This document shows positions 49,145-63,560 of a DNA stretch of 64,000 nt, one piece after another. Numbering within the stretch: the first letter of the stretch is position 1; the number at the start of each line of letters is the position of its first letter. The position numbers and the translations under genes were made by a program. The notes under the pieces were generated by a model. It had not been told where the DNA came from. It ran no database searches and saw only the letters and a list, made by a program, of their open reading frames with translations. This stretch comes from Pseudomonas fluorescens (lineage in GTDB: Bacteria > Pseudomonadota > Gammaproteobacteria > Pseudomonadales > Pseudomonadaceae), in the NCBI RefSeq assembly GCF_001623525.1, contig NZ_CP015225.1, positions 4,724,501-4,788,500 of the forward strand, given 5' to 3'.

Positions 49145-50203
49145 ATGTCAGCCTCTCTGCCGCCGCGCGGTCGCGGCACCGCTGCCAACCCGCACAATCG
49201 CTTTGCCCCGAGCCGCTCGGTGACCGAGGACGACGGCTGGTATCAGGAAGTCCCGCCGACCCAGGGCACCGAAGTGCGCATCGAAATGGCCAAGACCATC
49301 ATTACCCGCAACACCTCGTCCGATATCCCCTTCGACCGCTCGATCAACCCGTACCGAGGCTGCGAACACGGCTGCATCTACTGCTATGCGCGGCCCAGCC
49401 ATGCCTATTGGGACATGTCGCCGGGGCTGGATTTCGAAACGAAGCTGATCGCCAAGAGCAATGCCGCCGATGTGCTCGAAGAGCAATTGTCCCGGCGCGG
49501 CTATCAATGCGCACCGATCGCGCTGGGGTCCAACACCGATCCCTATCAGCCTATCGAGCGTGAACAACGGATCACCCGCCGGATTCTCGAGGTGCTGCTG
49601 CGCTATCGGCATCCGGTGACCATCGTCACCAAGGGTTCGCTGATCCTGCGCGACCTGGACCTGCTGACCGAGCTGGCGCAACAACGCCTGGTGCACGTGA
49701 TGATCAGCCTCACCACCCTGGACGATGAGCTCAAGCGTATTCTCGAACCCCGCGCGGCAGCGCCCAAGGCGCGGTTGCGTGCGATCAAGGTCATGCGCGA
49801 GGCGGGCATTGCCGTGGGGGTGCTGTGTGCACCGATGATCCCGATGATCAATGACAGCGAGATCGAGAGCCTGCTGACCGAAGCCCACGCCGCCGGCGCG
49901 CAGAATGCCGCCTACGTCATGCTGCGCCTGCCGCTGGAAGTCGCGCCGCTGTTCGAGGATTGGTTGCAGGCGCACTACCCGCAGCGCGCCGCCCATGTGT
50001 TGAGCCTGGTCCGCCAGAGCCGCGGCGGCGAGTTGTATGACAGTCGCTTCGGTGCGCGGATGCGCGGTGAAGGCCCGTTCGCCGACCTGCTGGCCCAGCG
50101 TTTCGTCAAGGCACTCAAGCGCTTGGGGCTGGAGCGCCGCGACGGATACAATCTGGATTGCGATGCCTTCTGTCCGCCGGGCCGACAGATGTCTTTGATT
50201 TGA
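49145..50203 (+). CDS. PA0069-family radical SAM protein
   Basis: The protein has 352 residues. The iron-sulfur motif is RGCEHGCIYCYARPSHAYW (C73, C77, C80), in the CxxxCxxC order of radical SAM enzymes. GSNTDPYQPIEREQRITR and VTIVTKGSLILRDLDLL are shared with spore photoproduct lyase-like and SplB-type proteins. The LexA box upstream suggests a DNA-damage role, perhaps repair; I recall PAO1 PA0069 among LexA-controlled genes. TTGGAG precedes the ATG. The reaction is unknown. Confidence 0.92.
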   Translation: MSASLPPRGRGTAANPHNRFAPSRSVTEDDGWYQEVPPTQGTEVRIEMAKTIITRNTSSDIPFDRSINPYRGCEHGCIYCYARPSHAYWDMSPGLDFETKLIAKSNAADVLEEQLSRRGYQCAPIALGSNTDPYQPIEREQRITRRILEVLLRYRHPVTIVTKGSLILRDLDLLTELAQQRLVHVMISLTTLDDELKRILEPRAAAPKARLRAIKVMREAGIAVGVLCAPMIPMINDSEIESLLTEAHAAGAQNAAYVMLRLPLEVAPLFEDWLQAHYPQRAAHVLSLVRQSRGGELYDSRFGARMRGEGPFADLLAQRFVKALKRLGLERRDGYNLDCDAFCPPGRQMSLI

Positions 50204-62505: not shown

Positions 62506-62951
62506 CCTCCGAGGGGCACACCGCTCAGCTAAGCCATCCCGATTCCTTGTGGTGAGGAAGTCCCTTGTGGCAATGAAATCCATTGTGGCGAGGGAGCTTG
62601 CTCCCGCTGGGCTGCGCAGCAGCCCCCGAAAAGCTGAACACGATCAACATGGCACAACGCGATGACTGGCCTCCAGCCCCCAATCTCTCTGTGGGAGCTG
62701 GTGAACACAGTATCTGCAACAGCCCCCAATCCCTGTGGGAGCGAGCTTGCTCGCGATGAAATCGACACGGTTCCAGACCAAAACAAGTCACCCGCATCGT
62801 CGACAAACCCTGCTCCTACAGACCCCACCTACACCCCACCACCAACCCACGCATCCTTGCGCCTTTGCCTACAACTACGCCAGAATCCGCCCGCTTGTGC
62901 GCCTTGTCCCGGGGTTCTATTGTTTTCCTGCCACTGCCCATCAGTGGTCGG
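62506..62951. repeat. 446-bp gap with degenerate REP copies
   Basis: A GTGGCGAGGGAGCTTGCTCC half-element with GCTGGGCTGCGCAGCAGCCC lies at 62583-62628 without its right arm. A TGTGGGAGCGAGCTTGCTCG half follows at 62733-62758, and fragments (CTTGTGGCAATG, CTGTGGGAGCTGG) between them look like decayed copies. From about 62770 to 62880 the sequence is C- and A-rich (TACACCCCACCACC) without a plausible gene. Confidence 0.75.
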
Positions 62952-63136
62952 GTTTAGTAGCCCGGTTAAGGATACGGTCGCATGAGTCTCATCAGTCGGG
63001 CATTGCCCGCACTCGATGGTGGCTGTGCGCATGGCGCCTTCGGGCGCGCCGGGTTTTCCGTTGTCCTACCGGTCTACTAACTTGCGCACAGCTGCCTCCC
63101 TTTCGTTTAGTAGCGAGACGGTAGCGGCCTACTAAC
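62952..63136 (+). other. Structured leader with four alternating complementary arms
   Basis: GTTTAGTAG occurs at 62952-62960 and 63105-63113, and CTACTAAC at 63074-63081 and 63129-63136. The first pair extends: 62952-62976 (GTTTAGTAGCCCGGTTAAGG) is complementary to about 63056-63081 (GTCCTACCGGTCTACTAAC) with few mismatches. Inside are small hairpins: CGGGCATTGCCCG (62998-63010) and GGCGCC-TTCG-GGCGC (about 63033-63047). The second pair closes a short hairpin ending 2 nt before the Shine-Dalgarno of the next gene. Arms 2 and 3 can also pair with each other. Confidence 0.65.
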
Positions 63137-63151
63137 AAAGGAAACGTGAAA

Positions 63152-63514
63152 ATGTTCAAAGCAACTCCAAATCCCCCAGATGCAGACCCCACCCCGCAAT
63201 CCGCAAAATCCAAAGCCAAGCAGCAAGACGAAACCACCAAACGCGTGCTCGATCACTACCTGCTGCCGAAATCTGAAAAATCTAAAGATGAACCAAAACC
63301 GGGCCAGCTATTCACCGTCGTGAAAGGCCTCGATAACGAATGCTTGCTCGCCAACCTCAGTGAGACGCTGGCTTCGGCTGATGCGATGGTGAGTGATCTG
63401 GCGTTCGACCTGAAAGGCTCGCGGCGTCATTTGGCGCTGGGGATTCAGCAGTTGATTGAGCTGAGCTCGTTGTTGGCGAATCAGGTATTGGATAATGTGG
63501 AGCCGGGGCGGTAG
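63152..63514 (+). CDS. DUF6124 / DUF3077-like small protein
   Basis: The protein has 120 residues, soluble, without a signal sequence. MFKATPNPPDADPTPQSAKS is a Pro-rich start found widely in this Pseudomonas family, followed by a basic linker and a helical C-terminal domain (LFTVVKGLDNECLLANLSETLASADAMVSDLAFDL, LALGIQQLIELSSLLANQVLD). AAGGA at 63138-63142 suits ATG 63152; GTG 63146 is too close to it. Pseudomonas genomes often carry several copies. No function is known. Confidence 0.82.
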   Translation: MFKATPNPPDADPTPQSAKSKAKQQDETTKRVLDHYLLPKSEKSKDEPKPGQLFTVVKGLDNECLLANLSETLASADAMVSDLAFDLKGSRRHLALGIQQLIELSSLLANQVLDNVEPGR

Positions 63515-63531: not shown

Positions 63532-63560
63532 GAAAAACCCGGCGTTCTGCGTCGGGTTTT
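63532..63560 (+). terminator. Terminator after the DUF6124 gene
   Basis: AAAAACCCGGCG and CGTCGGGTTTT pair (one G-T) around TTCTG, with T4 at the end. A moderately strong intrinsic terminator. Confidence 0.75.

Follow-up and report, generated by a model that had tools for sequence, protein, structure and literature searches.

The window, by which we mean the whole analysed stretch of 64,000 nucleotides from Pseudomonas fluorescens, carries a gene of the DUF6124 family (PF19619) at 63152-63514, which encodes a protein of 120 amino acids and scores 102.3 bits against a family cut-off of 27. The PF19619 scan started at an upstream in-frame GTG (63146); the ATG at 63152 was chosen as the start codon because starts of the MFK type align among the paralogues. 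The gene is followed by a terminator-like inverted repeat, AAAACCCG...CGGGTTTT, at 63534-63560, which was read from the sequence and was not listed by the pattern scan; a GNAT gene lies downstream of the DUF6124 gene. The open reading frames upstream of the leader are, as we take them from their translations, those of SCO1/SenC-like and CyoE-like proteins. Stretches at 62574-62760 presumably resemble Pseudomonas REP elements; the part at about 62584-62626 has many matches of ~90% identity in the genomes compared. All features described here at the locus, the gene and the inverted repeat included, are on the forward strand.

The leader contains two arms, each present twice: GTTTAGTAG at 62952-62960 (A1) and 63105-63113 (A2), and CTACTAAC at 63074-63081 (B1) and 63129-63136 (B2). 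They lie exactly where the first-pass annotation had placed them, and the A-B-A-B order that it reported is real; it is the order a1 - C4(a') - a2 of a C4 operon. A search of the whole window with Infernal against all Rfam families returned two families above their gathering scores and no others: C4 (RF01695) at 63012-63102 (69.9 bits, gathering score 45, E 1.5e-11) and c4-a1b1 (RF03163) at 62917-62968 (53.3 bits, gathering score 46.7, E 1.2e-10). On the E values of these two matches the arms are far beyond chance. A structured regulatory RNA thus does precede the DUF6124 gene, as had been proposed; the further suggestion that it might be an undescribed RNA fails, both of its parts being in Rfam already, and no riboswitch family matches in the window to bear out a riboswitch. 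Membership of isrK (RF01394) was rejected, with 21.6 bits against a gathering score of 50 over the a1b1 region.

The c4-a1b1 element (62917-62968) consists of two hairpins and carries the upstream target of the RNA, a1, in the second loop. By the model alignment, arm A1 is this target (62953-62960; exact complement of seven bases of a', within a hairpin with the stem CGGG/CCCG at 62949-62964), and arm B1 is the a' segment of C4 (63073-63081), which is complementary to both a1 and a2. The second upstream target, b1, was placed by eye at 62970-62977 and is imperfect here. The C4 fold (P1-P3, a closing stem and two inner hairpins) aligns over the whole RF01695 model with two non-standard pairs in the closing stem, which is 96.5% paired across the alignment of leaders (32% when shifted by one column). 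The mature RNA is probably 63018-63099, its ends being taken from the alignment with the annotated C4 of phage P1; GGT at 63018 is the presumed 5' end, with putative cleavage by RNase P. The b' segment (63053-63068) forms the loop of the P3 hairpin and pairs with b2, at -13.6 kcal/mol in this locus, and c' (63091-63099) is the 3' strand of the closing stem. Directly after C4 lies a2 (arm A2; 63106-63113), the downstream target of a', followed by c2 (63120-63128), by B2 as a second copy of a', and by b2 (63137-63147), which holds the Shine-Dalgarno sequence AGGA (63139-63142) of the DUF6124 gene. A putative promoter at 62895-62923 (-35 TTGTGC at 62895-62900, a spacer of 17 nt, -10 TATTGT at 62918-62923) was placed by alignment to the annotated -10 of the P1 promoter P1c4; a generic promoter scan found no promoter at this place.

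The C4 RNAs of phages P1 and P7 are described as processed, trans-acting antisense RNAs that block synthesis of the Ant proteins, with a 5' end made by RNase P (PMC8546580, PMC8198154, PMC12197685, PMC5320573). In the GenBank record of P1 (AF234172) the immI operon is annotated with a1, b1, C4, a2 and b2 ahead of icd. There a1 and a2 share one 7-mer, the fourth base past C4 is the first of a2, and the end of b2 is 11 positions ahead of where icd starts. The window resembles the immI operon (c4-icd-ant) of P1/P7 in the order a1, b1, C4, a2, b2 and start codon, in the C4 fold, in the position of a2 a few bases after the C4 stem, in the placing of b2 just before the start codon (with the Shine-Dalgarno sequence, ahead of ATG 63152), and in GGTGG at the presumed 5' end of C4. 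Judged on these sequence features, all of which agree with the C4 family, the leader is a complete C4 antisense-RNA unit. Its setting is unusual: instead of a phage location with icd and ant downstream, the unit is chromosomal, is one of about 25 copies in the genome with various codes, and leads a DUF6124 gene that is followed by GNAT.

The genome of the window holds 25 C4 matches, all above the cut-off, and 24 DUF6124 matches. For 21 of the 25 C4, a DUF6124 domain follows 170-221 nt downstream on the same strand. The exceptions are the four copies at genome positions 5467499, 3925181, 1710248 and 3517334, the last being a duplicate that has lost its matches and has a different ORF downstream. 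Since three of the 24 DUF6124 genes (4238173, 3316310 and 2603219) have no C4, the RNA is not required for the family. An a1b1 match precedes DUF6124 at 4238173 (51.2 bits, above the cut-off) and at 3316310 (45.6 bits, just below it); these two loci (L063 and L064) keep an a1b1-like start of the leader in the absence of C4, as if freed from its control. Two DUF6124 frames, at 49545 and 5077571, lack an in-frame ATG. Among named genomes, a profile HMM built from the copies of this genome and of a 30-locus panel found C4 within 260 nt upstream in 76 of the best 80 of 461 DUF6124 loci; the four without a match are left out of the 76 named loci used below. The RNA therefore travels with the gene family, as the first-pass annotation had supposed for its repeat.

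Across the genus, C4 scores above the Rfam cut-off in 183 of 199 genomes (up to 20 candidates per genome scored, which caps the copies counted at 20) and DUF6124 in 156 (158 at E 0.001). The 15 genomes without a C4 match all fall among the 41 without a DUF6124 match, a joint absence whose chance would be 4.7e-12 for independent genomes; these genomes are not independent. Among 273 other genomes drawn from the class, C4 was found in 17 (18 of 274 with the present genome), with at most six matches each when the best 15 candidates per genome were scored. One of these class genomes (G459, contig C9, locus L273) has four tandem C4 units within 1.4 kb, with different a' codes and with similar ORFs behind the first and third C4. 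Pseudomonas seems to have multiplied C4 on the chromosome into about two dozen differently coded copies, which mostly precede DUF6124 genes. Many C4 copies with variable a' segments in one chromosome are also described for Acinetobacter baumannii, compared here by description; targets are conjectural there, whereas most copies here have matched a2 and b2 and a gene of one family (PMC5320573).

The C4 unit beside SCO1 is also present in genome G010 (locus L236), at 80-83% DNA identity; no C4 was found after SCO1 in five other genomes in which enough sequence was covered, a sixth stretch being too short to count. Relatives of the window protein at E 1e-5 were found in one of 50,697 phage records and in none of 72,556 plasmid records. 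A relative is encoded on 88 IMG/VR stretches, and C4 was found in nine of ten tested (80 were fetched), stretches that may be prophage or host flank. On one viral_contigs record (L212, 4455-4526, reverse strand) the Rfam sRNA P10 (RF01668) adjoins a C4-DUF6124 unit.

The complementarity of C4 to its two flanks matches within loci and differs between them. At least six of the seven bases match between a' and a2 in 23/25 loci of the present genome, 30/30 of the panel and 74/76 named loci, and between a' and a1 in 24/25, 29/30 and 75/76, respectively. The a' 7-mer takes 15 forms among the 25 loci, several copies sharing one. In the own, panel and named sets alike, none of 20000 permutations is as good as the summed cognate energy of the a'-a2, b'-b2, a'-a1 or b'-b1 duplexes; for b'-b2 pairing z is -12.1, -12.9 and -23.9 (0/20000 each). 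For the whole loop region of C4, paired with its own or with foreign leaders, 0/100000 permutations reach the observed sum, upstream and downstream alike. In an alignment of 127 distinct leaders (the copy at 3517334 and three identical leaders left out) a'-a2 pairs in 94.8% of cells against 78.2% in shuffles, falls to 21-49% in slid registers, and shows 217 two-sided changes against 56.7 in shuffles, present in seven of seven pairs. The covariation check that the first-pass annotation had named is thereby answered, as a'-a2 and b'-b2 pairing covaries. Shuffle-based tests of this kind are inflated by related sequences, and the windows used for the duplex energies were chosen when the first loci were already in view.

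At single loci the code is less sharp. In the window, b'-b2 pairing contains a bulge, b' has no long perfect run against b1 or b2, and the b' site at the ribosome-binding site is imperfect, while across loci it is strong. Ranked individually against all 25 leaders, 18 C4 pair best with their own upstream leader and seven with their own downstream leader; for the C4 of the window these two leaders rank first and third. Clean orthogonality between the copies is not established, since the own downstream leader is seldom first and a' 7-mers are shared. Two young duplicates, at 3701405 and 5730066, are identical at 541 of 606 aligned bases. Two bases differ between them in a1, two in a' and two in a2, so that either copy still matches itself, a divergence that recalls the heteroimmunity of P1 and P7. 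Complementarity and its coevolution are both shown by the sequences.

The hairpin that the first-pass annotation had drawn between A2 and B2 stands only in part. B2 is present at the locus and is also visible in the orthologue L236, but the interval from a2 to the start codon contains an exact seven-base copy of a' in 1/25 loci of the genome (this one), 0/30 of the panel and 1/76 named loci, where six-base matches add five more. Because the B2 copy is nearly absent from other loci, the hairpin is a local feature, confined to this locus and its near relatives, and was rejected as a general element.

A conserved box at 62855-62906 (core TTGCCTACAACTNCGCCAGAATCCGCC at 62865-62891) is probably a regulatory site common to many C4 units. 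The part CCAGARTCCGCC of the box occurs in 15/25 C4 loci of the genome, and these loci can be aligned without gaps as far as the presumed -10. The core has 17 matches in the genome at three mismatches or fewer (none for the reversed pattern as a control), of which 14 are upstream of C4, one is before an a1b1-like match and two lie elsewhere, at 191443 and 191943, with no listed C4. A shorter core was found in 24/59 genomes of the genus. As the conserved box is common to 15 of the 25 loci and its core matches are mostly before C4, the sequences suggest that one regulator may serve much of the C4 set. The box, as GCCTTGCGCCNTTGCCTACAACTNCGCCAGAATCCGCCSGCTTGTGCGCC, stands before the presumed promoter in the window and at 14 other C4 loci of the genome, and is apparently more conserved than the leader.

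Pfam gives the protein of the window as a domain of unknown function only, and no significant family was found in NCBIfam or PHROGs. In its AlphaFold model (pLDDT 72.8 overall) residues 62-86 and 90-115 form a confidently predicted helical hairpin, and Foldseek gave no match against the PDB at E 0.001. As the family and Foldseek searches gave no match, no function is claimed for DUF6124. Behind 50 further C4 of the genus (an uneven sample of the 30 top-scoring loci and 20 chosen from the listed next ranks) the ORFs encode mainly DUF6124, DUF3077, proteins with LLIDTQAP-type motifs, a protein of 52-57 amino acids and Bro-N; a few loci have no clear ORF. Pfam, run on ten proteins from the further loci and the present genome, found DUF6124/DUF3077 in four and Bro-N in one, and no family for the LLIDTQAP-type and 52-57 amino acid proteins among the ten. 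DUF6124 and DUF3077 cross-match in some members. Many of the best-scoring Pseudomonas C4 (L010-L013, L285, L286 and others) are followed, after about 50 nt, by the conserved protein of 52-57 amino acids, which has no Pfam family in the two members scanned. Other Pseudomonas C4 precede Bro-N-type proteins (L027, L028, L030, L033, L034, L036 and L037; Pfam was run on L027 only), the frame at L036 being much shorter. Bro-N is an antirepressor-type domain; Ant1 of P1 matches ANT, not Bro-N. Titles and abstract openings listed for DUF6124/DUF3077, RF01695, C4 antisense RNA and Pseudomonas C4 report no link between C4 and DUF6124; what was listed for DUF6124/DUF3077 concerns furfural tolerance and not RNA.

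A third complementarity involves c2, the stretch of mRNA between a2 and b2, and c', the 3' strand of the C4 closing stem; their pairing would lengthen the hairpin that bears a2. For P1 and 17 C4 loci of the class, drawn from 14 genomes other than the present one, the energy sum of cognate c'-c2 duplexes beats all 20000 permutations (z -5.4), while in the controls on the same set (the 5' strand against the c2 stretch, z +1.0; c' against the upstream leader, z -0.6) neither does. With one locus per genome and the window (n=16, three of four tandem copies of one genome dropped) the signal is confined to +10 to +42 (0/20000), with 8/20000 for +0 to +32, and is absent further downstream. P1 has a complement of eight out of nine bases (-13.3 kcal/mol), but its own c' ranks 13th of 18. 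The signal is weaker in Pseudomonas, where 6/20000 permutations are as good in the own set and 1/20000 in the named set, and it is not significant in the 30-locus panel (1589/20000). In the 127 leaders c'-c2 shows 54 two-sided changes against 15.7 in shuffles and is paired in 81.5% against 79.7%, a slight excess, with 26-65% in slid registers. The covered portions of the C4 literature hold no mention of a third site.

When the last 22 bases of C4 are folded alone with the sequence up to +45, at least six of them pair beyond +8 in 24/25 loci of the genome, 30/30 of the panel, 74/76 named loci and 18/18 of a diverse set; in P1 part of this downstream pairing uses the C4 tail and not c2. Own partners are likewise favoured in the short stem around a2, where 8/5000 permutations are as good in the own set and 0/5000 in the others (one locus each of the named and diverse sets could not be positioned and was left out). 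The c2 hairpin excludes the C4 closing stem. In folds of the full leader the 3' end of C4 is predicted to pair downstream in 17/25 own, 16/30 panel, 47/76 named and 11/18 diverse loci; the C4 stem is predicted in 9/25 own leaders, one fold having parts of both, and the full leader of P1 is predicted in the C4 fold. Enforcing the C4 fold costs a mean of 4.5 kcal/mol in the own set and 1.3, 3.6 and 3.5 kcal/mol in the other sets. With 97 nt upstream of C4 the leader in the window is predicted in the alternative form and with 105 nt in the C4 stem; the two folds are therefore close in energy. These models suggest two mutually exclusive folds of the leader, the close fold energies not amounting to proof. 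The alternative pairing that had been anticipated (B1 with A2) finds partial support in another form, the predicted split being between the C4 fold and a1-a' pairing with the 3' strand of C4 paired downstream.

We interpret the leader, with a probability of roughly 0.87, as a chromosomal C4 antisense-RNA unit of the P1/P7 immI type that controls the DUF6124 mRNA. One transcript would run from near 62930 through a1/b1, C4, a2/b2 and the DUF6124 gene, and C4 would be excised from it as an RNA of about 80 nt, by RNase P if the analogy with P1 and P7 holds. The released RNA would bind DUF6124 mRNA in trans, with a'-a2 pairing giving specificity and b'-b2 pairing covering the Shine-Dalgarno sequence, so that translation would be blocked. 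The a1/b1 element would be a second binding site on the same transcript, probably acting as a decoy or as a holder in which C4 stays inactive before its release. As the roughly 25 copies differ in their a'/b' codes, each should prefer its own gene, with some crosstalk where codes are similar.

An extension of this reading is offered tentatively, and the odds are somewhat against it. Here c2 would be a third coevolving site, an imitation of the 5' strand in the closing stem of C4, and the transcript would fold either as C4, the released repressor, or as mRNA; in the mRNA fold a1/b1 would hold a'/b', c2 would hold the 3' strand, a2 would stand in a hairpin loop and the ribosome site would be free. 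Pseudomonas would then have multiplied a bistable unit as differently coded switches on DUF6124-type proteins, many of them with a common box.

The isrK locus of the Salmonella prophage Gifsy-1 (IsrK/STnc1160) resembles this arrangement. It has a short leader RNA, a stable processed RNA downstream with sequence complementary to the first, a leader with two mutually exclusive folds, and a small ORF followed by an anti-repressor-like gene, and its alternative structures were shown experimentally to switch translation; IsrK differs in ending at its own terminator and in activating in trans (PMC4825925). We infer that STnc1160 is a C4 RNA. Mapping in Burkholderia cenocepacia placed isrK and C4 RNAs within a single transcriptional unit (PMC4603805). 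In satellite phage P4 an antisense RNA, the CI RNA (with seqA and seqC), is likewise cut from a leader in which complementary sites flank it on both sides, but it acts by transcription termination (PMC4825925).

The Gifsy-1 precedent (PMC4825925) and the split of the full-leader folds would both suit a cis-acting attenuator or riboswitch, in which the alternative pairings answer a signal on the nascent transcript and C4 stays unreleased. We do not favour it as the main reading and hold it to be the least probable of the alternatives: no riboswitch family matches, the C4 of P1 is described as acting in trans (PMC8546580), and a' and b' are each complementary to two sites, which fits a target-binding RNA even if a cis switch could use some of the pairs. 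That the window copy is a decaying relic of a prophage operon, with no present function, is scarcely more probable. Some copies of the set are indeed degenerate (the C4 at 3517334, the two DUF6124 frames lacking an in-frame ATG) and C4 is missing after SCO1 in the five other genomes examined; here, however, the C4 stems, a1, a2 and the reading frame are intact, and the orthologue L236 has kept the unit.

A somewhat better case, though still an unlikely one, can be made for immunity as the main task of the C4 copies, directed at incoming phages or elements that carry matching targets, with the DUF6124 genes secondary. C4 is an immunity RNA in P1 and P7, and phage immunity is one of two roles proposed for the group 1 C4-like sRNAs of A. 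baumannii (PMC5320573). Against this, the C4 copies, taken together, are matched to the leaders downstream of them, and relatives of the window protein are nearly absent from the phage records and absent from the plasmid records at the threshold given above.

C4 is familiar as an RNA of phage immunity. What is seen here looks like a chromosomal control device, present in many copies and belonging to one genus. The copies form natural sets of antisense codes within a single cell, and the two young duplicates, which changed all three pairing sites together, amount to a natural experiment. With such code sets and duplicates, the specificity of antisense pairing, crosstalk between copies and the role of DUF6124 are all open to direct tests. 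Should the third complementarity be confirmed, it would account for a single transcript that serves as an antisense RNA and at once as its own target.
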